This document shows, piece after piece, positions 7,662 through 63,437 of a stretch of DNA of 64,000 nt. Within the stretch, counting starts at the first letter, position 1. Every line of letters begins with the position of its first letter. Made by a program: the position numbers and the translations under genes. Below the pieces are notes generated by a model. It saw nothing but the letters and a program-made list of their open reading frames with translations. It did no database searches and was not told the DNA's origin. The DNA comes from Methylocella silvestris BL2 (GTDB lineage: Bacteria; Pseudomonadota; Alphaproteobacteria; Rhizobiales; Beijerinckiaceae): positions 2,180,501-2,244,500 of the forward strand of contig NC_011666.1 of the NCBI RefSeq assembly GCF_000021745.1, read 5' to 3'.

Positions 7662-8257
7662 ATGAGGGCATCCGTGACGAGCTGGGCCGTCATGCCCGCG
7701 CTCATCGACCATCCAACAACGCGGCGCAAGAACAGATCGACGACCGCCGCTATATATAGCCAGCCCTGAGCTGTCCAGGTGTAGGTGAAGTCGGCGGTCC
7801 ACTTCTGGTTCGGTGCTAACGCTTCGAACGCTCGATCGAGGATATTGGACAATGCCGCATGACGCTGGCCGCCATCCTTTGGCAGGGCTCTGCGCCATGG
7901 CCGTGCCCGTAGGCCCTGCTAGCGCATCAGCCGCTCGATGCGATGCAGACCGGCGTCGAGCCTGTCGGCGAGAATGTCATGCCAGACCCGACGAGCTCCG
8001 TAGGTCCGGTCGCTGCCAGCAAAGCTCGACCGGATCCCGGCAACAAGCACTTCGTCATACCTGGCCCGTTGGCCGGGCGAGCGATCGAGCCAAGCATGAG
8101 AGCCCGAGCTAGAGACACCGAGCGCCTCGCAAATCCACGCAACCGGCCAGATCCCTCGGTGCTTCGCGACGAACCCGAACTTCGTATCGAGACGCTGCCA
8201 AAGCAGGCCGCGGCTTTTTTTAGACGTCGCGCTCCGCCTTGCGCTTGGCGACTTCAC
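7662..8257 (-). pseudogene. IS3-family OrfB remnant with nonsense codon and truncation
   Basis: The reading KFGFVAKHRGIWPVAWICEA, YGARRVWHDILADRL and IERLMR is the start of an IS3-type OrfB. A TAG at 7919-7921 interrupts it, after which the same frame continues with LSNILDRAFEALAPNQKWTA and WLYIAAVVDLFLRRVVGWSM, then LVTDAL, and stops being homologous at the IS junction near 7661. The first catalytic Asp region is present, the rest of the DDE core is lost. Confidence 0.75.
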
Positions 8258-8466
8258 GCCGCAGCTTCTCGATCTCGAGCTGCTCCTGGCGTCATCTGAC
8301 CATGGCCGGGAAACGCCTGTTGCGGATCGGAGGAATGCGCTCGCACCCGTTTGCGCAGCACATTGACATGCAGGTCGAGATCAAGGGCCGCCTGCGCAGC
8401 AGAAACACCCCGCCACCAGCTTCACTGCCTCGAGCCTGACTCACGGCTGAGCTTCCGTCTCTCCAT
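8200..8466 (-). pseudogene. IS3-family OrfA remnant with frameshifts
   Basis: Starting from an ATG at 8466 the pieces MERRKLSRE, LEAVKLVA, VSAAQAALDLDLHVNVLRK, SSDPQQAFPGHGQMTP and EQLEIEKLRREVAKRKAERD can be joined only by moving between frames at least three times. Together they match a typical IS3-group OrfA. No intact product is possible. Confidence 0.7.
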
Positions 8467-8773
8467 CAACACTCTCCAATTCCAAAACACCTTACCTCGG
8501 TGTCCTCAAAATCGGCAGCAGCTCACGTCGGCCAATCTTTCAGCTATGGCGTCGCCGCTTGCGGCGACAAGTTCTGGCTTCGGCTAGATTACAACGTGAA
8601 GGCCGGCACTCAATTTTTGCGTGCGAGTTGTAAATAGCTCAAGAAGCGATTGCTGATTTGGTCATCGGGTAAGATCATCCTTTGCCATCGTCGGCGCGCG
8701 CCGCAGGAGTTGAAACCGACGTCCTTGCGTCATACACTCTTATGCGGGGGCTTCTGCAAATTCGGAGACGATC

Positions 8774-8848
8774 ATGGGACTTGTGATCTGGGTTTGGATT
8801 TTATGCGCGCCAGTTGCGGCTATTGCACTGACTTACCCGCGCTCCTGA
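8774..8848 (+). CDS. Possible 24-residue single-span membrane peptide
   Basis: An ATG at 8774 preceded by GGAGA six bases upstream opens a 24-codon frame. The peptide starts MGLVIWVWILCAPVAAIAL and ends with a short polar tail (TYPRS), i.e. one transmembrane helix with a positively charged end. A 9-bp hairpin begins ten bases after the stop. The ribosome site, hydrophobic profile and hairpin fit a small membrane protein or toxin-like peptide, but such short frames arise by chance and no homologue is recognised. Confidence 0.3.
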   Translation: MGLVIWVWILCAPVAAIALTYPRS

Positions 8849-8857
8849 CGCATTTTG

Positions 8858-8887
8858 GGCTGCCGAGTTTAATCTGATTCGGCAGCC
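8858..8887 (+). terminator. 9-bp perfect stem hairpin
   Basis: GGCTGCCGA at 8858-8866 pairs perfectly with TCGGCAGCC at 8879-8887 around a 12-base AT-rich loop. No T run follows on either strand, so it is only a weak terminator candidate; it may instead be an RNA-stabilising or protein-binding element. Confidence 0.35.
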
Positions 8888-8953
8888 AGCACGGCTAAGA
8901 GAGCGTTAGCGCGTTGCTCAGATGCGATACCTTCCCTTCTAGTTAGCTGGAAC

Positions 8954-9244
8954 CTAACAGCTAGCAAACTGAGGTGGCGACTTACCATTGCGCAAATGGA
9001 CTGCGAGTGCGTGAAGCGCCTTCACGCTCAAGATCACGGGATCACGCTCACCGCGCTCCGCCTCATTGAAGATTGCCTGCGCGAGATAATTGCGAAAGGA
9101 CAGGATCTCGGCTGATCCGAACTCTTTTAGTTCGCCCTCCAGCATGGCCCAAGCCTGGTCAAACGCCTTCTGACGCACACTCGCACCATTATCCTCAATT
9201 CGGTTAATGGGCGCCGCTTCAACTCGCGGAAGAATGTCGGACAT
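8954..9244 (-). CDS. Hypothetical protein (96 aa)
   Basis: The ATG at 9244 has GGAG five bases upstream, supporting translation. The product is a soluble, probably all-helical protein (ASVRQKAFDQAWAMLEGELK; FRNYLAQAIFNEAERGERDP; LSVKALHALAVHLRNG) with no signal peptide or membrane segment. No domain is recognised. It lies downstream of the phytochrome response regulator in the same direction but is separated by about 240 bp, so co-transcription is uncertain. Confidence 0.6.
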   Translation of the reverse strand: MSDILPRVEAAPINRIEDNGASVRQKAFDQAWAMLEGELKEFGSAEILSFRNYLAQAIFNEAERGERDPVILSVKALHALAVHLRNGKSPPQFASC

Positions 9245-9482
9245 CAATACTCCAGTCTAATAAACAGTATTTGCGCCACATTACTTTCGCGAAAAAAGTC
9301 TTGAGACAGACGTCAAGGCGCGGGTTCTCCGGAACCGTCATTGCCCGAGAAGATCGTCCACCGGGTTAAGGGCTGAAATCACAGTAGAATTCGCTCATGG
9401 CCCGGCAAAGGAGGAAAATCCCCGCTCCGTGTCGATAAAATACCTACATGTCAGTGAAATTGCTGACAAGGCGAAGCTTCGG

Positions 9483-10154
9483 CTAAGATTCGCCGAGCCA
9501 GCCTTTGCCAGCCGCGTAGCGCACCAGCTGCACCCGGCTGTCGAAGCCAAGCTTTTCCATCGCCCGCGCCTTATACGTCTCCACCGATTTGACGCTGATG
9601 CGGAGTTCGGCGGCGACCGCTTTGTGGCTGTGTCCTCCAGCCGTCAATCGCAAAACCTCTGTTTCCCTCTCGCTGAGGTCAGCAATGGCGCTGAGCGCGA
9701 CGACGGTTGCCTTTTGTGGTATGCCGCCGAGCACTTTTCCAGCGATCGCCGGATCGAGATAGATCCCGCCCGCGGCGACGGCTCGTATCGCCCTAATGAG
9801 TTCCTCCGCGGCTGAACGCTTCAGAACATAGCCCGCAACGCCAAGTTCAAGGAGCTGGCGCAAATATCCCCGATCTTCGTGAACCGTCAGCGCGAGAATC
9901 TTGCTTTGAGGACAGGCCGCACGCAAAAGCTCGGCGACTTTCGTTCCATTCAGGCCGGGCATCGAGATGTCCAAGATTACGATATCCGGCTTAAGCTCCG
10001 TCGCCAAGCTGAGCGCGCTGCGCCCGTCGCAAGCGTCTCCGACGATGGTCATTTCTGGATCCGCGCCGATCAGCGCCTTGACGCCAGCAAGAACGACAGG
10101 GTGGTCGTCGGCGAGAAAAACGCGAAGGGAGATGGGCGCCGCCGCAAGGCTCAT
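9483..10154 (-). CDS. NarL/FixJ-type response regulator partnered with bacteriophytochrome
   Basis: This 223-residue regulator has an N-terminal receiver domain with the acidic pair in FLADDHP, the phospho-acceptor Asp62 in VILDISMPGLNG and the conserved Lys in GYVLKRSAAEEL. A LuxR-type HTH follows (LSERETEVLRLTAGGHSHKA; ISVKSVETYKARAMEKLG). Its ATG overlaps the bphP stop by one base (TAATG), so it is almost certainly the cognate output of that kinase and acts as a DNA-binding transcription factor. Targets are unknown; the nearby photosynthesis genes are one possibility. Confidence 0.92.
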   Translation of the reverse strand: MSLAAAPISLRVFLADDHPVVLAGVKALIGADPEMTIVGDACDGRSALSLATELKPDIVILDISMPGLNGTKVAELLRAACPQSKILALTVHEDRGYLRQLLELGVAGYVLKRSAAEELIRAIRAVAAGGIYLDPAIAGKVLGGIPQKATVVALSAIADLSERETEVLRLTAGGHSHKAVAAELRISVKSVETYKARAMEKLGFDSRVQLVRYAAGKGWLGES

Positions 10155-12469
10155 TAGAGCGGAACATGAATGAAGAGGGTCGCGCCATGCCCCGGGCTGG
10201 TTTCAATCTCCAGTTTGCCTCCTACAAGGGACAAGCGCTCACGCACGCCAAGAAGCCCAAGGCGGGAGGAGGGCTTTGTCGCCGAGTCGACGTCATCCCA
10301 GAGAAAGCCCCTGCCGTCGTCCTCCACAATCATGATCGCCTCGCTCGACGTCGCCTTCAGAATGACGCCCGCTTTTTTTGCCTGTGAATGCTTGACGACA
10401 TTCGTGATCGCTTCCTGAAGAATGCGATAGAGCGTCGTCTCGACAATAGGCGGTAGTCGCCGATCGCTCAAGGCGAGGTGCAAATCAAACTGCAGCCCCG
10501 ATTTCTGGCCCCATTCCTCTAAAAATTGCTGAATTGCCGTCTGAAGGCCAAGATCGTCCAGGGCCGTCGGCCGGATTTCCCAGGCGAGGCGATTGACCTC
10601 TTTGCCAAGATTCGCCGTCAGGTTCTTGAGATCCGCCACGCGTCGCTTCACTGCTGGAGATGAATCGACGTCACGGCCGATCCCGTCGAGATCGAGTTGC
10701 ATTACAGTCAGATATTGCCCGAGACTGTCGTGTAATTCGCGCGCAATCCGCTGTCGTTCCGCTTCCTGATTGATGACCGTGCTGCGCAAGACTTCGGACA
10801 GCTCGGCCTCTACAACGGCGCGGCGATCCGATTCGATCTTCAGTTGCTGCGCCGTCGTCTCCCATTGACGGATCCGATGGTCAAGCGCCACAAGCAGGGC
10901 GTCCTGACGCTGGCGCGCAGTCTCACGCTCGCGCGCAATTTGGTCGACGCGTCGCAGCACAACCTCGAGCAGCGAAACCCTGAGCGCCTGCGCGGTCTGA
11001 ATTGCGACGCTGCTCCACGGGCGCGACTGCAGTCGGACCTCCTGCTTCCACGCGGCGAAGCTCTTTCGCGGCGACAGGCGTTGCCCATCGGGCTCGGCGC
11101 TCACCGACTTATCGGGGTTGCCAGCCCAGGTCACAGTCTCGATGATTTCCGGCCGGAACCAGATGACATAATCACGCGGAGTCTTCGACACCGAAAGCGC
11201 GATGATTCCGCTAGCCACATCTGCAAAGTCGACGGCGGGCGCATAGAGCTTAGGCAGCGCCGAAGTATGGAAAACGCCGTCCTCCGCGGTCTCGTTTAGC
11301 CAGCCCACGAGCCCGGCCGCCTGATCCGCGTCCGGCGCCCGTCCGAGATGTGTATAGCGGCCCTCGATCCAGAGCCCCAGTCCATCAGCGGATATAATGT
11401 CGAGCAAGCTCGGACGCAGCTTTTCCAGAGCGTCCGCAAGTTCCCCAACCCCCGCAAGATGCGTCAAAAGTCTGTCGTGCAGGACTTTGGACCGGGATCT
11501 AAGCTCGAGCTCGGCGGCAGTGATTTTGGTCTCGAGAAGGAACGAAGCCATCTGGCTGAAAAGTTCGAGCGCGACGCGCAGGCGATGCGCGACAAAACGC
11601 GGCGTCCGTGAATGGCAGGCCACCAGGCCCCACAATTTGCCGTCGAGAATGATCGACAGCGACATGGTCGCGGCGACGCCCATATTTCCCAGATATTCAA
11701 GATGAATTGGCGAGACGCTGCGCAATGCGCTCTGGCTCAGATCGAGCGGGCGCCGTTCCTGCGCGTCGAATACCGGTTCGAGCGGGGCCGGTTCATAGCG
11801 CGCGTCGGCGATCAGCCTGATCCAGTTGCGCAGATAGAGATCGCGGGCCTGCTTTGGAATGTCGGACGCCGGGTAGTGCAATCCGAGGAAAGGCGCCAGC
11901 GCCGGGTCTTTGGCTTCCGCGTCGACCGCGCCGCTGCCGTCGGGCAGAAAGCGGTAGACCATGACGCGGTCGAAATTCGTCGCCTGACGCACGACGTCGG
12001 CGACGGATTGGCAGAAAGCCGCGACAGAATCGGCCTCCTGCACGCTGCGGATCATGGTCTGAACGAGCGCCAGCGAATCATCGACAATGTCCTCATAGAC
12101 CGGCTCGAATTCGAGAATGAGCGATCCGTCGCTGAAATGCGCGGTGACGTCGACGCCACGGTTGCCACCCACGGCGTTCATGCGGAAAGCATGCAAGGGG
12201 CGGATCATCGCCCCCTCATTATCCAACAAGTCCCGCAGCCGGCCGATCCGCCCGGCCGAGAGCCAGTCTTCGATCGGTTTGCCGATCAGATCGCGCGGCG
12301 CAAAGCCGAGGAGCTGTCTTGTATTGCCGCCTGCCTGCGCCACCGTCAGACTGTCGGCGTCGAGCGCCAGCAAGGCGCCATGGGGCTGAATCGACCCTGG
12401 AATATGGATTGGCTCGCGGTCGCAGTTTGACAGGTCTGCGGCGCCGAAAGCGGGCGTCTCGTCATCCAT
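10154..12469 (-). CDS. bphP: Bacteriophytochrome histidine kinase (PAS-GAF-PHY-HisKA_3-HATPase)
   Basis: This is a red/far-red photoreceptor kinase of 771 residues from the ATG at 12469. The biliverdin-binding Cys16 is in the N-terminal motif SNCDREPIHIPGSIQPHG; the GAF domain has the chromophore-pocket motif PASDIPKQARDLYLRNWIR; the PHY tongue has PRKSFAAWKQEV. The output module is of the NarX/DegS type, with the phospho-His in ERQRIARELHDSLGQY and an ATP-binding end with DDGRGF and GLLGVRERLSLVGGKLEI. The frame extends upstream into bphO, but the conserved start is at the ATG that overlaps the bphO stop. Coupling to heme oxygenase upstream and a LuxR regulator downstream makes a complete light-sensing unit. 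Confidence 0.95.
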   Translation of the reverse strand: MDDETPAFGAADLSNCDREPIHIPGSIQPHGALLALDADSLTVAQAGGNTRQLLGFAPRDLIGKPIEDWLSAGRIGRLRDLLDNEGAMIRPLHAFRMNAVGGNRGVDVTAHFSDGSLILEFEPVYEDIVDDSLALVQTMIRSVQEADSVAAFCQSVADVVRQATNFDRVMVYRFLPDGSGAVDAEAKDPALAPFLGLHYPASDIPKQARDLYLRNWIRLIADARYEPAPLEPVFDAQERRPLDLSQSALRSVSPIHLEYLGNMGVAATMSLSIILDGKLWGLVACHSRTPRFVAHRLRVALELFSQMASFLLETKITAAELELRSRSKVLHDRLLTHLAGVGELADALEKLRPSLLDIISADGLGLWIEGRYTHLGRAPDADQAAGLVGWLNETAEDGVFHTSALPKLYAPAVDFADVASGIIALSVSKTPRDYVIWFRPEIIETVTWAGNPDKSVSAEPDGQRLSPRKSFAAWKQEVRLQSRPWSSVAIQTAQALRVSLLEVVLRRVDQIARERETARQRQDALLVALDHRIRQWETTAQQLKIESDRRAVVEAELSEVLRSTVINQEAERQRIARELHDSLGQYLTVMQLDLDGIGRDVDSSPAVKRRVADLKNLTANLGKEVNRLAWEIRPTALDDLGLQTAIQQFLEEWGQKSGLQFDLHLALSDRRLPPIVETTLYRILQEAITNVVKHSQAKKAGVILKATSSEAIMIVEDDGRGFLWDDVDSATKPSSRLGLLGVRERLSLVGGKLEIETSPGHGATLFIHVPL

Positions 12470-13103
12470 CTGCGCCGCCCGGTGAAATCGTCGCGCCGCC
12501 GCGCTCCAGGCCGGCGAACCAGGCGCCGAACAGGTGAAACGCGTCGATCGCCGCACGTTCGATCTCGGCGACGGCGCCCTCGTCGCCGCCGAGATTTTCG
12601 ACCGCCGCGACATAAGCCCGCCACATCCGTCCGACGTCAGCTCCATAGCTGGCAAAGAAGCGTCCGCCAAAAGTCGGACTGAGCCCGAGTTTCGGGCCAA
12701 GCCGGCGCAGGATCAACTGACCGCCCAAAGTCGAGCCTTCCACGACATAAAGAACGCCAAGACCCGCGGCGATCGATCCCGGCCGGGGCAGACTTTTGCG
12801 CTGCGGCAGCGCCGCGCGTGCGCCGGCGTCGAGGCCGAAATCGGCAAGGTCGGCGGCGATCCAGGGAAGTTTGCGGCGCGCCTCGAAATCGAGGCCCGTC
12901 GGCGTCCAGTGGAGCTCCGACAATGTCTGTTCCAGCGGAGCATAGAGTCCGAAGAATCGGATCAGCAGCGCAATATAATCGTCGCGCCCCATGTCCCGAT
13001 CGAGGTCGAGGTGCTGCTCCACACGCTGGTGCAAAGCCTCAGTCGCAAGCCGCAAGCGGCCCCTCACGCCAATGCCGGAAAGCTCAGTCACCGCATCCAT
13101 CAT
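12462..13103 (-). CDS. bphO: Biliverdin-producing heme oxygenase
   Basis: The enzyme cleaves heme to biliverdin, the chromophore of the adjacent phytochrome. The proximal His lies in RLRLATEALHQRVEQHLDL and the distal helix in AAGLGVLYVVEGSTLGGQLI, both characteristic of BphO-type oxygenases. Size from the ATG at 13103 is 213 residues; ATGs at 13136 and 13100 and a TTG at 13154 are alternatives, none with a clear ribosome site. The 3' end overlaps bphP by eight bases, so synthesis of chromophore and apoprotein is coupled. Confidence 0.92.
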   Translation of the reverse strand: MMDAVTELSGIGVRGRLRLATEALHQRVEQHLDLDRDMGRDDYIALLIRFFGLYAPLEQTLSELHWTPTGLDFEARRKLPWIAADLADFGLDAGARAALPQRKSLPRPGSIAAGLGVLYVVEGSTLGGQLILRRLGPKLGLSPTFGGRFFASYGADVGRMWRAYVAAVENLGGDEGAVAEIERAAIDAFHLFGAWFAGLERGGATISPGGADG

Positions 13104-13259
13104 GTCTGGCAAATCGATTTTCAGACGCCGGAGCATATTCGCGTAACACGCCAAGCCGCTCCGCGGCCGCTCTTTGTAACACGCCGGACGCCGCGGCGCC
13201 GATTCGGAGAACCGCGCCGAGACGGCGCCGCACTGTGATGCGGGGGGTCAATTCGACCC

Positions 13260-13757
13260 CTACTCGTCCCGGGCGCCCCGGCGGGCCTTGTTTTTCGCGG
13301 CCCTGGCCGACCATTCGTTCGGAGACGCCGGAGTGTCCTTGACCGGCTCCTCCACTTCCCCATCACAGATATGGACACCCTCGGCGAAATGCTCTCGCAA
13401 AAGCTTGATCAATCGATCGACGGCGGGGTCCAGCATCCTGACCCAGATTGTCTCCTCCTCCGATCCCAGCTCCCGCATCTCGGCGATCCGGGCGAGCGAG
13501 GTCTCTCCGTCTTCCATCATCAGCGAAGCGGCAACGCGCGCCGCGCTGAGCAGGGCTGAAACGGCGGGATCGCTTTTTCCCTGGATCATCAGGCGAGGAA
13601 TGATCTGCGTTTCGATCATCCGCCTCAGTCGGGCGTTTCGATCGCCGTCTTCACCGGTCCCCGCGCCGTTCGAAGATAGGGCGTAACCGTGCGCCGCAGC
13701 CGACCGGTCGCCACGTTGCGCCGGAGCGCGAATTTTCAGGTGCGCCTCAAATTTCAT
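13260..13757 (-). CDS. Short AerR/PpaA-like protein lacking the B12-binding fold
   Basis: The 165-residue product resembles the N-terminal part of the window's own AerR protein. Residues 43-58 read RLRRMIETQIIPRLMI against RLARTIESEIIPRLMI in AerR, and residues 102-117 read ETIWVRMLDPAVDRLI against ETIYMDLLAPAARRLG in its helical cap. The sequence then ends in a charged tail, with no HxxG corrinoid motif and no Rossmann-like half. It sits 105 bp upstream of bphO in the same direction. A light-related adaptor or anti-repressor role is inference from the paralogy and location; a decaying pseudogene is possible. Start chosen at the ATG 13757. Confidence 0.65.
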   Translation of the reverse strand: MKFEAHLKIRAPAQRGDRSAAAHGYALSSNGAGTGEDGDRNARLRRMIETQIIPRLMIQGKSDPAVSALLSAARVAASLMMEDGETSLARIAEMRELGSEEETIWVRMLDPAVDRLIKLLREHFAEGVHICDGEVEEPVKDTPASPNEWSARAAKNKARRGARDE

Positions 13758-13998
13758 ATCCCGCACGCGCCGCCTCCCCGGATCGATACGATGATATTCT
13801 TCTTGTCCGGCCCCTTTTCCCGAGAACAGTCCCGCGAGCCGAAAGCCGTCGCAAACTGCCATGTTTCGCGCGCTTGGCAAACCTCGATCGCGCGAAAATT
13901 GGAATTTCCCGAAGCACAATCCGCAGCGGCGTAGCTTCTCTGTGCCGCTCCTCAAGCAGCGCGCGCCGCAAATCGCCGCTCACAAACCAGCGAAGGCT

Positions 13999-15252
13999 CT
14001 ACAATAGCCGCGATTTCGCCGGCGCGGCGACCGACCGAGAGAGCACATAAAGCCCAACATCCGTCGCGCCGCTCCGGAAGCCGCCCTCGCAATAGCCAAG
14101 ATAATATTCCCAAAGTTTCCTGAACCGGTGATCGAAGCCGAGCGTCTCGATCGTCGGCCAGTTTTTCTGAAAACGCCTCGCCCATTCGGCGAGAGTCGCC
14201 GCATAGCTCTCGCCGAACGCCCGGATCGCAACGAGATCGAGGCCGCCGTCCGCGATGTGTTTGCGAAGGAGGCCCGGCGATGGCAGCATGCCGCCCGGGA
14301 AGATATAATGCTGGATGAAATCCGAGGCGCTTTCATAGGAGCTGAAGCGCGCGTCCTCGATCGTGATGACCTGGATCGCGGCGAGCCCCTGACCGTCTAG
14401 GCGCGCGCGCACAACGTCGAAATAGGCCGGCCAGAAACGTTTCCCGACGGCCTCGAGCATCTCGATCGACACCACCCTGTCGAATGTGCCAGTCACATCG
14501 CGATAGTCCTGCAGGCGTATGTCGGCGCGGTCAGCGAGCCCCCCGCGTGAGAGACGCGCCATGGTATAATCGCGCTGCGCCGGCGAGAGGGTAAGCCCGG
14601 TGACCTCGCAGCCGCGTTCGATCAGCTTCTGCGCCAGGCTGCCCCAGCCGCAGCCGATTTCGAGCACGCGTTCGCCGCCGGAGAGAGCCAGCTGGTCGAG
14701 GATGAAATTCTGCTTCGCTTCCTGCGCCGATTCAAGCGTCAGATTCGGCTCGTGAAAAAGAGCGGACGAATAATTCATGTCCTCATCGAGCCAGAGCCCG
14801 AAAAACTCATTGCCGAGATCATAGTGATCCATGATGTTACGCCGGCTGCCGCGCCGCGTGTTGGCCCGCAGCGCGTGACGCAAACGGTTGAACACGCGGA
14901 CTGGAAAAAAACCGCTCATGGCGTTTTGCAAGCCCGAATCATTGCGCGCGGCGAGTTCGATCAGCGCCGCCAGATTCGGGGTTGTCCAATCGCCCTCAAG
15001 ATAGGCGGCGCCAAATCCGGTGTTGCCTTCGAGGATAAGGCGGCGGATCGCCCTCCAGTGGCGCACATGAATCTCCGCGCCAGGACCAGGCTGCGCGCCG
15101 CGATGTCGAATCATTTCGCCGCCTGGCGTGATGATCGTCAGGCTGCCGATCGTCATATTGCGCAAAAGCGTGTGCAATATGAGATGGCGGACGTTGGCGC
15201 GGACATCCCGCGGCGCAAGGAGGCGCTCTCCTTCGTTAATCTCATTCGTCAA
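13999..15252 (-). CDS. cfa: Cyclopropane-fatty-acyl-phospholipid synthase-family methyltransferase
   Basis: SAM-dependent enzyme acting on unsaturated phospholipid acyl chains. Of 417 residues, the N-terminal lipid-binding part leads into IMDHYDLGNEFFGLWLDEDM, the SAM motif VLEIGCGWGSLAQKL, the IEMLEAVGKRFWPAYFD block, YIFPGGMLPSP and the late YYLGYCEGGFRSG with the conserved Cys. The start is a TTG whose last bases overlap the DUF1365 stop (TTGA), preceded by GAGG. In Rhodobacter, relatives in similar gene sets methylate cis-vaccenate on the way to furan fatty acids and respond to singlet oxygen; whether this one does so is inference. Confidence 0.9.
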   Translation of the reverse strand: MTNEINEGERLLAPRDVRANVRHLILHTLLRNMTIGSLTIITPGGEMIRHRGAQPGPGAEIHVRHWRAIRRLILEGNTGFGAAYLEGDWTTPNLAALIELAARNDSGLQNAMSGFFPVRVFNRLRHALRANTRRGSRRNIMDHYDLGNEFFGLWLDEDMNYSSALFHEPNLTLESAQEAKQNFILDQLALSGGERVLEIGCGWGSLAQKLIERGCEVTGLTLSPAQRDYTMARLSRGGLADRADIRLQDYRDVTGTFDRVVSIEMLEAVGKRFWPAYFDVVRARLDGQGLAAIQVITIEDARFSSYESASDFIQHYIFPGGMLPSPGLLRKHIADGGLDLVAIRAFGESYAATLAEWARRFQKNWPTIETLGFDHRFRKLWEYYLGYCEGGFRSGATDVGLYVLSRSVAAPAKSRLL

Positions 15253-16046
15253 GGACGGACCTCATCTCTTTCGGGCAGCGGGACAACACTTGGCGATGTC
15301 TCCGGCGGACCTGGAGAAGGCCGAAGACGAATGCCTTTCAGCCACAGGCGCAGAGCCTCGAAGTGAATGCCGGCGATCACTTTCACGGTCATCAACGGAT
15401 AGGCGACGATGAGTCCAAGCAGCTTGCCGCCGGTAAATTCGACGCGCCGCCCGGAAAAGCTCGTGGCGAGCATCACGCCTTCCGAATCGACCGCGTTCAC
15501 GTTGAAGGCCATCCGGGCGCCGGGAAGCCGAATGGTGAATTTATAGGTTAGCTCCATATCCATGAAGGGAGACACATGCAGCCGCTTCGGGCAATGTTGC
15601 AAGATACGCCCCTGTTGACCGCGCGCGTCGAACAGATAGACATGTTTCTCGCCGAACGTATTGTTGACCTCATAGAGGATCGCGACCAGATCGGTGCCCG
15701 CGCCGTAGCAGAAATACACGCTTATCGGATTGAACACGTAGCCGAAAACACGCGGCATGCATAAGAGCCGTATGGAGCCGCCATCGGCTGAAAGCCCGGC
15801 GAGCCGCAACGTACCCTCGACTTTTGCGCGCAAGGATTCGGCGCCTGCCAATAAATGATCATTGTCATAGAAGCTGATCACATTGGCGCGGTTATAGCCG
15901 AACAGCCGAAGCTCATCGTCGAGGGCGGCGAGCTCGTCGATGTCGAAAAGAGCAAGAAAAATCCCGTAGCGGAACCTGTGGCGCCGCGGCCTCAGGCGCC
16001 GATGCATGACTATGCCAGGATAAAAACAGGAAGCCCGCGCCTTCAT
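15249..16046 (-). CDS. DUF1365 family protein
   Basis: The 265-residue protein has the DUF1365 signature: SCFYPGIVMHRRLRPRRHRF at the start, the CMPRVFGYVFNPISVYFCY core, YEVNNTFGEKHVYLF, and HVSPFMDMELTYKF. The family almost always sits between a flavin amine oxidase-like gene and a CFA-type methyltransferase, exactly as here, with ATGA overlaps on both sides. Its biochemical role is not established; a part in modifying fatty-acyl chains is inferred from this conserved linkage. Confidence 0.9.
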   Translation of the reverse strand: MKARASCFYPGIVMHRRLRPRRHRFRYGIFLALFDIDELAALDDELRLFGYNRANVISFYDNDHLLAGAESLRAKVEGTLRLAGLSADGGSIRLLCMPRVFGYVFNPISVYFCYGAGTDLVAILYEVNNTFGEKHVYLFDARGQQGRILQHCPKRLHVSPFMDMELTYKFTIRLPGARMAFNVNAVDSEGVMLATSFSGRRVEFTGGKLLGLIVAYPLMTVKVIAGIHFEALRLWLKGIRLRPSPGPPETSPSVVPLPERDEVRP

Positions 16047-17386
16047 TGCAGCGCCGTCTCCGCATCGTGAAGCCTGAGCGAGGGGATACGCCCGGATTCA
16101 TCCGGCACGCTCCAGGGGCGCCGGACGCCGCCAATTTGTTCGGCGACGGCCAGTCCGGCCTGCAATCCATCCTCGTGAAATCCGGCGCCGAAATAGGAGC
16201 CGCAAAACCAGATGTTGCGCTTGCCCTGCAGGCTCCAGAGCAGCCTTTGCGCGTCCAGCGCCGCGGCGTCGAAAACGGGATGATGAAAGATTTCACTGTG
16301 CAGGATGAAGTTGGGGCGCGGCGGATTCGGCGGGTTGAGCGTCACGAAAATATTCTCAAGCGGAGGCAGATCCTGCAGCCTGTTCATCCAGTAGGTGACG
16401 CAGAAGCTATCCGCACCGCCCTCGCGCTTAGTCAGATAGTTCCAGCTGGCCCAAGCCTTGCGCCGCTTCGGCATCAGCGTGTCGTCGGTATGGAGCACGG
16501 CCGCATTGGCGCTGTACCTGAACGCGCCGAGCAGCCGCCGCTCCTCGGCGCTGGGGTCCGCCAGCATTGCAAGGGCGTCGTCGGCGTGTGCGGCGATGAC
16601 GACGCGATCGAAATGCTCGACACCCCCGTCCGACGACCGGACTTCCACGCCTCCGGCCTCATGCCGGACGGTCAGCGCGGGACTTTCATATCTGACCTCG
16701 ATATCGCGTAAAATCCGTTCGACATAGGCGCGGCTGCCGCCGGCGACTGTGCGCCAGACGGGCCTTCCGATCAGCTTCAGGAGTCTGTGATTGTCGAAGA
16801 ATTTTATGAAGGCTTCCGCCGGAAAATCGAGCATGGTTTTGGCCGGAGCCGACCAGATCGCGGCGGCCATCGGCAGAATGTGATCGTCGCGGAAGGCCTC
16901 GCCAAACTTCTCCCGTGTGAGATAGGAGCCAAGACTGACGTCCTGCAACGCGCCGAGATGACTCGGGGCGTTGGCGTAGAAGCGCCGCAGATCCCGCAGC
17001 ATCGACCAGAAGCGAGGGCTCAAGATGTTGCGGGGCTGCGCGAAAAGTCCGGTGAGATTGACGCCGCCGCTATATTCGAGACGGCCGCCGTCAAGGGACG
17101 CCGCAAACGACATTTCCGACGGTTGCGTCCTTACCCCAATATGGTCAAACAGCGCCGTCAGATTGGGATAGGTCAGCGTATTGTAAACGATGAAGCCGGT
17201 GTCGACCGGCACAACGCCCGAAGCAGTTTTTACGTCTACGGTGTTGCTATGCCCGCCCGGGCGCACCGCCCGCTCGAACATCGTGACGCGATGAGCGCTG
17301 CTCAAGAGCCACGCCGCAGCCATCCCGGAAATTCCGGTCCCTATCACGGCGATATTGCAGCCGCTCTCGCGGTCCCCTTGAGTCAT
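16043..17386 (-). CDS. FAD-dependent amine oxidase/desaturase-like oxidoreductase
   Basis: This 447-residue flavoprotein has a Rossmann dinucleotide-binding N-terminus (NIAVIGTGISGMAAAWLLSS), the second FAD motif around FERAVRPGGHSNTV, and the C-terminal FAD contact in WFCGSYFGAGFHEDGLQAGL. The ATG at 17386 is fixed by GGGAGGG six bases upstream; a longer frame to 17464 was not used. It heads the oxidase-DUF1365-CFA operon. In phototrophic relatives this trio belongs to the singlet-oxygen response and to unusual fatty-acid formation, so a lipid-desaturase role is plausible but inferred. Confidence 0.88.
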   Translation of the reverse strand: MTQGDRESGCNIAVIGTGISGMAAAWLLSSAHRVTMFERAVRPGGHSNTVDVKTASGVVPVDTGFIVYNTLTYPNLTALFDHIGVRTQPSEMSFAASLDGGRLEYSGGVNLTGLFAQPRNILSPRFWSMLRDLRRFYANAPSHLGALQDVSLGSYLTREKFGEAFRDDHILPMAAAIWSAPAKTMLDFPAEAFIKFFDNHRLLKLIGRPVWRTVAGGSRAYVERILRDIEVRYESPALTVRHEAGGVEVRSSDGGVEHFDRVVIAAHADDALAMLADPSAEERRLLGAFRYSANAAVLHTDDTLMPKRRKAWASWNYLTKREGGADSFCVTYWMNRLQDLPPLENIFVTLNPPNPPRPNFILHSEIFHHPVFDAAALDAQRLLWSLQGKRNIWFCGSYFGAGFHEDGLQAGLAVAEQIGGVRRPWSVPDESGRIPSLRLHDAETALQ

Positions 17387-17468
17387 AGATTTCCCTCCCA
17401 TTTTATATACGGCCCGCGAAGGCAAAGGTTTCAAGCCCGAAAAGAAATGATTTTCAGGACGCATCGAG

Positions 17469-17494
17469 GGAACTTATCGCCCGTATCCGGCGTA
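17469..17494 (+). promoter_or_regulatory. EcfG-like promoter candidate
   Basis: GGAAC at 17469-17473, a 17-base spacer, then CGTA at 17491-17494 resembles the alphaproteobacterial general-stress consensus GGAAC-N16/17-CGTT, with one mismatch. It lies 40 bp upstream of the hydrolase ATG at 17534. This is suggestive only. Confidence 0.3.
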
Positions 17495-17533
17495 TTCCGG
17501 CGACACCGCGCGCTCTAGCGTCCGAGCTTTTGA

Positions 17534-18370
17534 ATGTTTCGTCTGGACGAGCGCCTTGGCCTTAATTTCCTCAATTTACCATTCGTGTCGGGCGCGAAAG
17601 CGGTCGCGCTCGACGTCGCCTACGGCGTGGAGCCGCGCCACCGTCTCGACGTCTACGCTCCAGCTGCAGCGTCATCGGCGCCGGTGGTGATCTTTCTGCA
17701 CGGCGGCGGCTGGGAGACCGGCGCGAAGGAGGACGACCGGTTCGTCATGGGCGGGCTTGTCGGGCGAGGCTTTGTCGCGATCACGCTGAACTATGGGCTC
17801 TACCCGGCTGTGCGTTATCCGGTCTTTCTCGAGGACGCCGCGATGGCTGTCGCATGGGCGAAGGACCATGCGCGGGGGTTTGGCGGAGATCCGGCGCGTG
17901 TCGTGCTTCTCGGCCATTCCGCGGGCGCCTACATTGCGGCCATGCTTAGCCTCGATGTGCGTTGGCTCGGCGGCGTCGGACTCGATCCTGCGAGCGATAT
18001 AGCGGCGGCCATCGGGCTTGCCGGCCCTTATGATTTTCTTCCTTTGCGAAGCCCATCGCTCAAAGCCATTTTCGGACCGCCTGAAAGCTGGCCGCAGACG
18101 CAGCCGATGGCCTATGTGACAGGCAAGCGGCCATTCATGCTGCTGGCGACCGGCGATAATGACGACGCTGTCGATCCCGCCAACACAAGCCGGCTCGTAA
18201 ATAAAATTCGCCAATCCGGCGGCGGCGTACAAACGATCGTTTATCCTGGCTTGTCGCATCGCGGCATACTGGCGGCGCTCGCCTGGCCTCTGCGTTTTCT
18301 GGCGCCTGTGCTTGACGATATCGCCGGCTTCGTCGCACGGCGCTGCCCCCCAACATCGGATCAGCCGTGA
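17534..18370 (+). CDS. Alpha/beta hydrolase (esterase/lipase, HGGG type)
   Basis: The 278-residue hydrolase has the oxyanion-hole motif FLHGGGWETGAKED, the nucleophile elbow GHSAGAYIAAM, an Asp in the ATGDNDDAVDPANT region and the catalytic His in YPGLSHRGI. There is no signal peptide, so it is probably cytoplasmic. It is divergent from the flavin oxidase gene (147 bp apart) and coupled by a GTGA overlap to the DUF1295 gene, which suggests a shared role in lipid turnover. The substrate is unknown. Confidence 0.85.
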   Translation: MFRLDERLGLNFLNLPFVSGAKAVALDVAYGVEPRHRLDVYAPAAASSAPVVIFLHGGGWETGAKEDDRFVMGGLVGRGFVAITLNYGLYPAVRYPVFLEDAAMAVAWAKDHARGFGGDPARVVLLGHSAGAYIAAMLSLDVRWLGGVGLDPASDIAAAIGLAGPYDFLPLRSPSLKAIFGPPESWPQTQPMAYVTGKRPFMLLATGDNDDAVDPANTSRLVNKIRQSGGGVQTIVYPGLSHRGILAALAWPLRFLAPVLDDIAGFVARRCPPTSDQP

Positions 18371-22504: not shown

Positions 22505-22548
22505 TGTAAGTCTATCTTGTCATTTCTTTGTGTCAACTTATATTGACA
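22505..22548. promoter_or_regulatory. Tandem PpsR/CrtJ operators upstream of hemA
   Basis: The site at 22531-22548 reads TGTCAACTTATATTGACA, an exact TGT-N12-ACA. A second, imperfect copy, TGTAAGTCTATCTTGTCA, lies at 22505-22522. The two are separated by exactly 8 bp, the spacing seen at three other promoters in this window. They lie 70-113 bp upstream of the hemA ATG. PpsR is encoded at 38313-39755. Confidence 0.75.
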
Positions 22549-37313: not shown

Positions 37314-38282
37314 ATGCCGACTGTCAATCGGAGGCTTCACGACGACTGTTCAGCGCCCGGGGAGTGCGCCGATCCCCGCGGTCTGTTCCCATGGGGCGAT
37401 CTGTTCGAAAGCAGAACGCATAGCTCCGCGCCTAACAGCGCCGCGTCGGGTGGGGCCCAGCTTGCGCCGGCGAAGTCATCGGGAAAGGGGTCTCGGACAA
37501 CGCGGCTCGCGCGCACCATCGAGTCGGAAATCATCCCCCGTCTGATGATCGCCCATAGCGAGGAGGCGCCGCGTGCTTGGCCGGTTGAGCCCCCCTCTCG
37601 AATCAAAATGCCTGACGTCGAACGCTTCGCCGAGCTGGTCGTGACGCAGGACGCCGCTGTCGGCTATTCCTGCGTCGCGGCCGTGCTGGATCAGGGCGTC
37701 TCCGTGGAGACGATCTATATGGATCTGCTGGCTCCGGCGGCGAGGCGGCTCGGGGATCTTTTTGACGAAGACCTCTGCTATTTCACGGACGTCTCTATCG
37801 GCCTCGCCCGGCTCCACCAGATCATGATGAACGTCGCCGAGTTCATGCGATCGCGGAGCTTTCCGCCCGCCGGCGCCCGACGCGCGCTACTTGTTTCCTT
37901 GTGCGAGGAGAAGCACAATTTCGGACTCTTCATGGCGGCGAACTTTTTTCGCAGGGCCGGCTGGGACGTCTTCGGCTGGCCCTTGATGGCGCCTCAGGAG
38001 CTCGCCGCCATCGTCTGCAATGAGTCTTTCCATCTTGTCGGGATTTCGGTAAGTTGCACCGATCATTTGGATCGTGTGCGGCGGGCTATTAGTATGGCCA
38101 GAAAAGCCTCCCGCAACAGGGCCGTAAAGATCATGGTGGGCGGCCTTCCGTTCTGCGATCATCCAGAAACCGCCGCCGAACTCGGCGCTGACGCGGCTTC
38201 ATCGGATGGGCTGCAGGCTGTGCAGATCGCAAACAGGCTCGTCGGGTCCGTCCCGGGCGCCGGCCGCACCGGGATCTTTTAG
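37314..38282 (+). CDS. aerR: AerR/PpaA: B12-binding antirepressor of PpsR
   Basis: AerR is a photosynthesis regulator that binds cobalamin and counteracts the repressor PpsR. The 322-residue protein has an extended low-complexity N-terminus (1-62), the helical region starting RLARTIESEIIPRLMIAHSE (64-83), the cap with VETIYMDLLAPAARRLG (131-147), and a B12 domain with EEKHNFGLFMAANFFRRAGW, where the H201-xx-G204 motif replaces the usual DxHxxG, as in other AerR proteins. It is directly upstream of ppsR in the same direction. Confidence 0.92.
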   Translation: MPTVNRRLHDDCSAPGECADPRGLFPWGDLFESRTHSSAPNSAASGGAQLAPAKSSGKGSRTTRLARTIESEIIPRLMIAHSEEAPRAWPVEPPSRIKMPDVERFAELVVTQDAAVGYSCVAAVLDQGVSVETIYMDLLAPAARRLGDLFDEDLCYFTDVSIGLARLHQIMMNVAEFMRSRSFPPAGARRALLVSLCEEKHNFGLFMAANFFRRAGWDVFGWPLMAPQELAAIVCNESFHLVGISVSCTDHLDRVRRAISMARKASRNRAVKIMVGGLPFCDHPETAAELGADAASSDGLQAVQIANRLVGSVPGAGRTGIF

Positions 38283-38312
38283 GCCCTCAGAAATGGGGCT
38301 CTCATAGCTGAC

Positions 38313-39755
38313 ATGGACATGGCCGCCGCGCGCACGCAACATCGTCAGTTGAAGGATCCAAAATCCTCTCTCGGAGCATTGAACGCGTTCGACACGGCGA
38401 AATTGATCACCGCCGCATCGGACGTCACGCTCATCCTGGACAACGACGGCCTTATTCGCGACGCCGCGTTCGCCGCCGACCTTGTCGGGGAGCCGCAGAC
38501 CCGTGATTGGGTCGGCCGCCGCTGGTCGGATGTTGTTTCGAGCGACAGCAAGACAAAGGTCGAAGAGCTTCTGCGCGACGCCGCCGCGAAGACAGACCTG
38601 CGGTGGCGGCACGTCAATCATGTCGCCGCCGGAGCCGCCGAGGATCTGCCGATCCGCTATTGCGCCCTTCAGGTTGGCCAGAAAGGCCGAATCGTTGCGC
38701 TTGGCCGCGATCTGCGCGCGATAGCCAAATTGCAGCAGCGCCTTTACGACGCGCAGCTCTCCCTTGAGCGCGAATATTCGAGGCTTCGTCTTTCGGACAC
38801 GCGCTACAGGCTGATGTTCGAAGTCATTTCCGATGCCGTCCTGATCGTCGACGCTGGAACGCTGAAGATCGTCGAGGCCAATCCGGCGGCGCTGCGGCTT
38901 ATCAACAGGACGACGCGGCGCACCATCGGCCGATCCTTTCTCGATCTCTTCGACGCCGGCTCAGCGCCGGTCGTCAACGGGCTGATCGCCGCGGTCCGGG
39001 TCGCGGGTCGCGCCGACGAGGCGATCGCGCTGCTTGCCGACCGCGCCGGCGAAGCCGCCATCTCCGCGACGCTGTTCCGGCAGGAAGCGCTTTCGCATAT
39101 CCTCGTCCGGCTGACGCCGACCCGGCCGGACAACGCGGCCGAGGCCTTGCCGAAATCCAAATCGACGCTACTCCGGATGGTCGAAAAACTGCCGGACGGC
39201 TTTGTCGTCACCGGCTCCGACTGGCGCATCATGAGCGCCAATCCAGCCTTCCTCGACATGGCGAACCTGGCGAGCGAGGACCAGGCGCGCGCTGAATCTC
39301 TTGAGCGTTTCGTGGGACGCGAGGGCGTCGCCTTCAGCGTGCTGACCTCGCATCTGCGCGAGCACGGGCTCGTGCGTAATTTTGCAACGACGCTCAACGG
39401 CGATTCCGGAACCTCGGAAGAAATCGAGATCACCGCCGTGTCGGCTCCCGATGAGGATCAGGCCTGCTACGGCTTTACCTTCCGGTCTGTGCGCGGCCGC
39501 CTCGTCCAGCCGCCGCAGGCGGGCGGCAGCGGTCCGCGCTCAGTCGAGCAATTGACCCAACTGGTCGGCCGCGTGTCGCTGAAGGACATCGTGCGCGAAT
39601 CGACCGACATCATCGAACAACTCGCGATTAAAGCGGCGTTGCAGTTGACCGGCGACAACCGCGCCTCGGCCGCCGACATGCTCGGCATGAGCCGGCAGAG
39701 CCTTTATGTGAAGCTGCGGCGCCACAGCCTCGGCGATCTCGATCCCGAATATTGA
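38313..39755 (+). CDS. ppsR: Photosynthesis repressor PpsR/CrtJ
   Basis: PpsR represses bch, crt, hem and puf/puc genes through TGT-N12-ACA sites. The 480-residue protein has an N-terminal PAS-like region, a coiled linker (LQQRLYDAQLSLEREYSRLR), two more PAS domains (about 155-275 and 290-400) and a Fis-type HTH (DNRASAADMLGMSRQSLYVK). Only two cysteines are seen, near residue 117 and at 385; the HTH lacks the redox/persulfide Cys found there in Rhodobacter PpsR/CrtJ. Candidate operators for it occur at five places in this window. Confidence 0.95.
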   Translation: MDMAAARTQHRQLKDPKSSLGALNAFDTAKLITAASDVTLILDNDGLIRDAAFAADLVGEPQTRDWVGRRWSDVVSSDSKTKVEELLRDAAAKTDLRWRHVNHVAAGAAEDLPIRYCALQVGQKGRIVALGRDLRAIAKLQQRLYDAQLSLEREYSRLRLSDTRYRLMFEVISDAVLIVDAGTLKIVEANPAALRLINRTTRRTIGRSFLDLFDAGSAPVVNGLIAAVRVAGRADEAIALLADRAGEAAISATLFRQEALSHILVRLTPTRPDNAAEALPKSKSTLLRMVEKLPDGFVVTGSDWRIMSANPAFLDMANLASEDQARAESLERFVGREGVAFSVLTSHLREHGLVRNFATTLNGDSGTSEEIEITAVSAPDEDQACYGFTFRSVRGRLVQPPQAGGSGPRSVEQLTQLVGRVSLKDIVRESTDIIEQLAIKAALQLTGDNRASAADMLGMSRQSLYVKLRRHSLGDLDPEY

Positions 39756-42420: not shown

Positions 42421-42464
42421 TGTCAATATAAATTGACACATAAAAATGACAATATAAACTTACG
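42421..42464. promoter_or_regulatory. Tandem PpsR/CrtJ operators between crtD and crtE
   Basis: TGTCAATATAAATTGACA at 42421-42438 is an exact TGT-N12-ACA palindrome. Eight bases on, 42447-42464 reads TGACAATATAAACTTACG, an imperfect copy with one mismatch in each half. The pair lies between the divergent crtD and crtE starts (46 bp and 28 bp away), so it can control both. Confidence 0.78.
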
Positions 42465-44593: not shown

Positions 44594-44637
44594 TGTAAAG
44601 AATGATTGACAATCTGGATTGTCATTTTAAACTTACA
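44594..44637. promoter_or_regulatory. Tandem PpsR/CrtJ operators upstream of bchC
   Basis: Two exact TGT-N12-ACA sites: TGTAAAGAATGATTGACA (44594-44611) and TGTCATTTTAAACTTACA (44620-44637), separated by 8 bp. A third palindrome, TGACAATCTGGATTGTCA (44607-44624), lies across the spacer and overlaps both. The bchC ATG is at 44677. This is the best match to the operator pattern in the window. Confidence 0.85.
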
Positions 44638-63393: not shown

Positions 63394-63437
63394 TGTCAGC
63401 AAAAATGTACGTTACCGTATGTCAATTAAAATGTACA
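63394..63437. promoter_or_regulatory. Tandem PpsR/CrtJ operators between bchI and crtB
   Basis: TGTCAATTAAAATGTACA at 63420-63437 is an exact TGT-N12-ACA site. TGTCAGCAAAAATGTACG at 63394-63411 matches in five of six consensus positions. The two are 8 bp apart, and both carry the half ATGTAC. The pair lies between the divergent bchI (start 63338) and crtB (start 63468), so it can control both. Confidence 0.8.

Follow-up and report, generated by a model that had tools for sequence, protein, structure and literature searches.

In Rhodobacter capsulatus, AerR with an N-terminal extension (LAerR) makes CrtJ an activator, and AerR that does not carry this extension (SAerR) makes CrtJ a repressor (PMC6199135, PMC9144470). 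In the published models, helix 4 of AerR docks on the Q-linker of CrtJ/PpsR (PMC9144470); the switching of CrtJ/PpsR by the 40-residue extension has, in the literature covered here, been addressed by modelling only. Among the papers listed on AerR/CrtJ/PpaA and on bacteriophytochromes, no title or opening abstract line describes an AerR relative without its ligand domain, and a text search of PMC10734443 for a truncated or paralogous form gave none. Methylocella is listed among the aerobic phototrophic Rhizobiales (PMC6920907), and here we describe, in a 64,000-nucleotide stretch of DNA (referred to as the window) from Methylocella silvestris BL2, a methane-consuming bacterium with photosynthesis genes, a small gene that appears to be a divergent copy of aerR. 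We propose, with about as much doubt as confidence, that its product is now a B12-independent modulator acting through one conserved segment, motif 1. The features of the window that bear on this proposal are as follows.

13260..13766, minus strand: AerR-derived small gene (open reading frame, AerR homology, ortholog in M. silvestris TVC, dN/dS, start context)
13584..13631, minus strand: motif 1, RLRRMIETQIIPRLMI, residues 43 to 58 counted from the ATG (profile match)
13389..13568, minus strand: region matching AerR cap helices 1 to 3, residues 64 to 123 (alignment, profile)
13263..13388, minus strand: C-terminal tail, residues 124 to 165, in which AerR similarity is absent and which lies where AerRs have cap helix 4 and their Rossmann domain
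13244..13260, no strand: perfect palindrome GGGGTC-N5-GACCCC, GGGGTCAATTCGACCCC, between the small gene and bphO
12462..13154, minus strand: bphO, heme oxygenase (PF01126)
10154..12475, minus strand: bphP, bacteriophytochrome histidine kinase of the HisKA_3 type (Pfam/NCBIfam)
9483..10154, minus strand: response regulator with receiver and LuxR-type HTH (Pfam/NCBIfam)
37314..38282, plus strand: full-length AerR with cap and B12 domain (PF02607, PF02310; matches the AerR structure 7te2)
38313..39755, plus strand: PpsR (TIGR02040, above cut-off)

BLASTP aligned the small protein with the AerR of the window over 129 positions at 31% identity (E = 4e-11 in a single comparison), and in its own genome (4,305,430 bp) that AerR was the only other match at E ≤ 10, with E = 3.6e-6. 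Motif 1 of the small protein is identical at 12 of 16 positions to its counterpart in the window AerR, residues 64 to 79. Against an AerR profile built from 34 AerR-like frames of the fetched loci, with the short copies left out, residues 41 to 60 alone scored 18.8 bits, and residues 60 to 123 alone, which include the second AerR-like segment (ETIWVRMLDPAVDRL, residues 102 to 116), scored 18.1 bits; of 300 shuffled versions of residues 60 to 123, 81 gave a reported hit, the top one scoring 8.0 bits. When the two Methylocella AerRs were also removed from the profile, the same segments scored 18.1 and 17.3 bits, respectively, and the best shuffle 8.9. Since each segment matches the AerR profile separately, both are real; residues 1 to 40 and 123 to 165 did not match it. 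Pfam, NCBIfam, and PHROGs contained no family for the small protein, PDB sequences gave no match up to E = 10, and a plasmid collection searched with tblastn gave none up to E = 1. In a tree, the branch to the short copies has 3.76 changes per column, and because of this long branch the tree fails to place them. A structure predicted from a three-row alignment only (mean pLDDT 42, pTM 0.23) has helices at residues 36 to 59, 64 to 79, 84 to 95, 101 to 123, and 147 to 160, in agreement with motif 1 and cap helices 1 to 3, which at this confidence proves nothing. Judged by homology, the AerR family is the source family of the small gene. A preliminary description of this locus had presented the gene as an AerR paralogue without a B12 domain, with two AerR-matching segments and a place upstream of bphO, bphP, and a LuxR-type regulator, and all of this is upheld by the BLASTP and profile results and by the Pfam/NCBIfam identification of the neighbors.

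In the alignment, the small protein keeps motif 1 and the region of cap helices 1 to 3 and then continues into an unrelated tail, and it is without helix 4 of the four-helix cap. Neither the B12-binding Rossmann domain nor the lower axial His is present (no PF02310 match), and no remnant of this domain was detected in positions 8000 to 18000 of the window. Absent as well are the B12 lid residues Trp and Phe, each of which occurs in 32 of the 34 AerRs; the window AerR itself has Phe in place of the lid Trp and aligns to chain 7te2_A with the lid residues in register. Lacking helix 4, lid, and Rossmann domain, the small protein therefore has no B12 site. The loss of the corrinoid-binding half reported earlier thus stands as far as the Rossmann domain is concerned and has to be extended to cap helix 4. 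The lid spacing of 7 in AerRs agrees with that between W94 and F101 in the SAerR of R. capsulatus (PMC9144470). Counting back from the lid as placed by 7te2_A, on the assumption of no gaps, we infer that motif 1 corresponds to about residues 8 to 23 of LAerR, inside the 40-residue extension that is absent from SAerR. A His after motif 1 is found in 32 of the 34 AerRs, with Gly or Ala in the short copies; its equation with the upper ligand of LAerR, His10, was dropped because the spacing disagrees, His10 lying 84 residues before Trp94 and the conserved His 69 before the equivalent residue.

The frame at 13260 to 13757 (minus strand) encodes 165 amino acids from the ATG at 13757 and forms part of a longer listed frame that begins with TTG. 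The likelier start, a GTG in the same frame at 13766 and 6 nucleotides after GGGGAGG, gives 168 amino acids. The small gene lies upstream of bphO, bphP, and the response regulator gene, all on the minus strand, and BphP has the domain order PAS_2-GAF-PHY-HisKA_3-HATPase. On its other flank is a gene at 13999 to 15252 (minus strand) that we take to encode a cyclopropane-fatty-acid-synthase-type methyltransferase (cfa), and aerR and ppsR (37314 to 39755) are located about 24 kb away. Between the small gene and the bphO ATG at 13136 there are 123 nucleotides, and co-transcription of the two genes is possible, with the palindrome in between; its arms are kept in M. silvestris TVC, it has no second exact copy in the window, and it is a candidate for either an operator or a hairpin. 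Promoter and terminator scans gave results near chance, Rfam gave no match in positions 8000 to 16000, and no tRNA was found in the window. Downstream of the response regulator gene, an open reading frame of 97 amino acids (8954 to 9247, minus strand) has no Pfam family of note and is 42% identical over 65 amino acids to one at the same place in another genome of the genus (G003, see below); at the edge of the cluster, the frame at 7919 to 8257 (minus strand) is presumably a piece of an IS3-type transposase gene.

A search with the single protein covered 60 genomes, its own included, of which 5 had a match at E ≤ 0.01. Besides its own genome, only M. silvestris TVC (G008) carried the short gene, 94% identical and at the same place. 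Wider searches, in overlapping samples and with a profile of AerR N termini and the short copies, gave matches in 124 of 397 genomes of the family (E ≤ 0.001), 64 of 397 of the order (E ≤ 0.01), and 23 of 385 of the class (E ≤ 0.001). Among the matches listed from these samples, no intact short copy was found other than those of the genome itself, G008, and G003; in the family, the matches listed reach down to about E = 1e-7, and weaker short copies are possible. With the exception of these three genomes, the unbroken frames among the listed family and class matches have at least 253 amino acids, the G003 exception being a 108-amino-acid open frame (E = 9.9e-8). Shorter frames at the order level were judged to be broken or spurious, with G468, G620, G528, and G494 left out; the first of these has one TGA in its listed frame. 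A second match in G034 (L008) was judged on reading to be due to chance, and a match in G037 (L083) was rejected as an AerR relative, as it does not match the full AerR profile. The short frames of G525 and G754 are frame-shifted full-length AerRs, and those of G532, G581, and G426 were set aside because a TGA interrupts motif 1 and the B12 domain follows as an open frame. The latter three (L080, L081, and L082; genus g73 of the same order, with G468 as a candidate fourth genome) are second AerR-like copies that have this TGA at the same place (LAKR*EGETIS) and an open cap as well; by their frames, they are S-type AerRs that lack the extension and mirror the Methylocella gene.

Within the genus, AerR-like matches among those listed are found in 3 of 15 genomes (G000, which carries the window, G008, and G003). 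The same three have the window-type BphP at E ≤ 1e-60, and in the 12 others neither AerR, among the matches listed, nor a window-type BphP was found. Phototrophic Methylocella are so far the only bacteria in which the AerR-derived short paralogue has been seen. In G300, of the same family, bphO has a full-length AerR gene as its neighbor, in a ppsR-bphP-bphO-aerR group, and hence the position of an aerR gene next to a phytochrome gene is not new; what is unusual in the Methylocella small gene is the loss of the B12 domain and not the adjacency.

The G003 gene (L040:3221-3505, plus strand) encodes 94 amino acids, with motif 1 and its His followed by unrelated sequence, and a search of all frames of L040 revealed nothing else resembling AerR. 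It stands at the downstream end of the bph operon and is convergent with it, the operon being inverted and on the other side of a block of genes that, by our presumed labels, runs from an amine oxidase gene to cfa. An Arg at position 3 and a Met at position 5 of the motif are common to the G003 gene and the short copies and occur in none of the 34 sampled AerRs. At the DNA level, motif 1 of G003 agrees with the two short copies at 37 and 38 of 54 positions and with the four AerRs compared at 29 to 36 of 54; upstream of motif 1, the similarity between the short gene and G003 is not above that of shuffles (68 of 300 as high). We take the G003 gene to be an ortholog of the small gene. The G003 bphP gene is 75% identical to the window copy, and the response regulator gene 79%. 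The bphO gene of the window (12462 to 13154) and its G003 counterpart (L040:7323-8141) are about 30% identical over the aligned part, and by this comparison the heme oxygenase gene may have been replaced between the two lineages. Recurrence of a gene of this kind beside bphO and bphP, suggested at the outset as a check, was seen in all three of the 15 genus genomes with the window-type BphP; in two of them it stands at one end of the operon and in the remaining one at the opposite end. That the gene stays beside the bph operon even where this is inverted and displaced, together with the loss of the features for B12 and for modelled PpsR docking, would suit a part of the phytochrome pathway, namely a small protein that partners with BphP, BphO, or the regulator and works outside the PpsR/AerR circuit. 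We consider such a role quite improbable: the best-kept part of the protein is the part most like AerR, and genus g58 has the same BphP and regulator in four genomes (BphP 57 to 60% identical), with no short-gene or AerR match in the 11.8 to 16 kb around BphP.

Selection was measured on one pair of close genomes, those of the window and TVC. Over 164 codons, the small gene shows 13 synonymous versus 10 nonsynonymous changes and a dN/dS of 0.239, compared with 0.267 for aerR, 0.477 for bphO, and 0.183 for cfa in the same pair. An open upstream frame that is probably noncoding has a dN/dS of 0.442 (5 synonymous and 7 nonsynonymous changes), and given this value and that of bphO, a low dN/dS is not peculiar to the small gene. 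In neutral simulations with four transition biases, 13 synonymous changes out of 23 were reached in 0.2 to 0.6% of the runs (P 0.002 to 0.006), and for this one genome pair the preliminary expectation of a dN/dS below 1 is confirmed. The frame is open in both genomes, with no stops, and its single internal indel is a whole codon (a deletion in TVC). The stop codon is not conserved, as the TVC gene is 4 codons longer at its end, which with the one codon missing makes 168 versus 165 amino acids from the ATG. The spacer towards bphO differs less (3 of 100 positions) than the small gene (24 of 495). Between the window and TVC there are thus no stops or frameshifts and the dN/dS is not neutral, the G003 relative being shortened, and from what can be read in these sequences the small gene is not an obvious pseudogene.

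The main rival explanation is slow decay. A second copy of aerR, located near bphOP, would have had its 3' half deleted and would now be eroding, with the low dN/dS reflecting residual constraint or chance. Such decay would account for the G003 copy, which is down to 94 amino acids with AerR similarity only in motif 1, and for the variation of the C terminus between copies; it is in keeping with AerR copies that have stops or frameshifts elsewhere in the order (L079, L080-L082, L084) and with a dN/dS that comes from one genome pair. It fits less well with a frame that is intact in both M. silvestris-type genomes despite its great divergence from AerR, with the synonymous excess over the neutral simulations, and with a motif 1 that was kept while the rest changed. 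We give it a substantial probability that is short of even. By the one pair of close genomes compared, altered function is a better fit than neglect for a copy that is old, has diverged fast, and yet remains open and apparently constrained.

The reading of the preliminary description, a PpsR adaptor through which red light would signal to PpsR, has in its favor the AerR ancestry and the place beside bphO and bphP. This role appears very improbable, as cap helix 4, the modelled contact with PpsR/CrtJ (PMC9144470), is missing and the known route from RpBphP1 to PpsR2 uses a BphP with a PAS9/HOS output and not a kinase (PMC6899989). The red-light input was deduced from adjacency, and the phytochrome of the window is a kinase whose own response regulator is encoded next to it. 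Moreover, of the 8 exact PpsR-type sites (TGT-N12-ACA) in the window, compared with 2.3 expected by chance, none is within 2.8 kb of the small gene, the nearest being at 10383 inside bphP. Sites of this type are also found at 22531 to 22548, 42421 to 42438, 44594 to 44637 (two close together), and 63420 to 63437.

According to the explanation that we prefer, a B12-independent modulator, an old aerR copy would have been stripped of its B12-binding Rossmann domain along with cap helix 4 and persisted as a small protein. Action through motif 1, which by its position would belong to an LAerR-type N-terminal extension, is proposed because it is motif 1 that the genes of M. silvestris and G003 share. 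Acting in trans and free of light or B12 control, the small protein would sit on the surface that the AerR extension normally contacts, with AerR itself, PpsR, or PpsR-bound DNA as candidate surfaces. It could in this way tune the switch between repression and activation, perhaps as a competitor of the extension or by supplying it in trans, and control of the gene by the phytochrome would be a guess from its position. A more specific version, in which a free LAerR-type extension, needing neither B12 nor blue light, acts in trans and shifts PpsR/AerR between repression and activation, from a gene beside a red-light phytochrome, strikes us as rather unlikely. If true, it would provide a naturally free-standing extension, without B12 domain and helix 4, with which the extension could be tested alone, and an AerR relative that escaped B12 by loss of its ligand domain and not, like AppA, by a change of ligand.

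Microproteins derive from larger regulators, of which they retain a single domain, and act on the parent protein. The small protein is similar to them in its derivation from a larger regulator by domain loss, and any partner or inhibitory action of it would be hypothetical. With AerR/PpaA (LAerR, SAerR, 7te2) it shares motif 1 and the region of cap helices 1 to 3, as well as the setting of a genome that has full-length AerR and PpsR; in contrast to them, it has no cap helix 4, Trp/Phe lid, Rossmann domain, or B12 site, and its gene adjoins bphO and not ppsR. Like the SCHIC domain of AppA from R. sphaeroides, it is related to AerR but independent of B12; however, AppA (PMC9144470) has retained the complete fold, with heme as its ligand, and the small protein has lost the ligand domain. 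The SAerR-like copies L080 to L082 are, like the Methylocella gene, second AerR-like copies with one end lost, but in them the cap and B12 domain remain and motif 1 is lost, and the small gene keeps motif 1 and loses the B12 domain.
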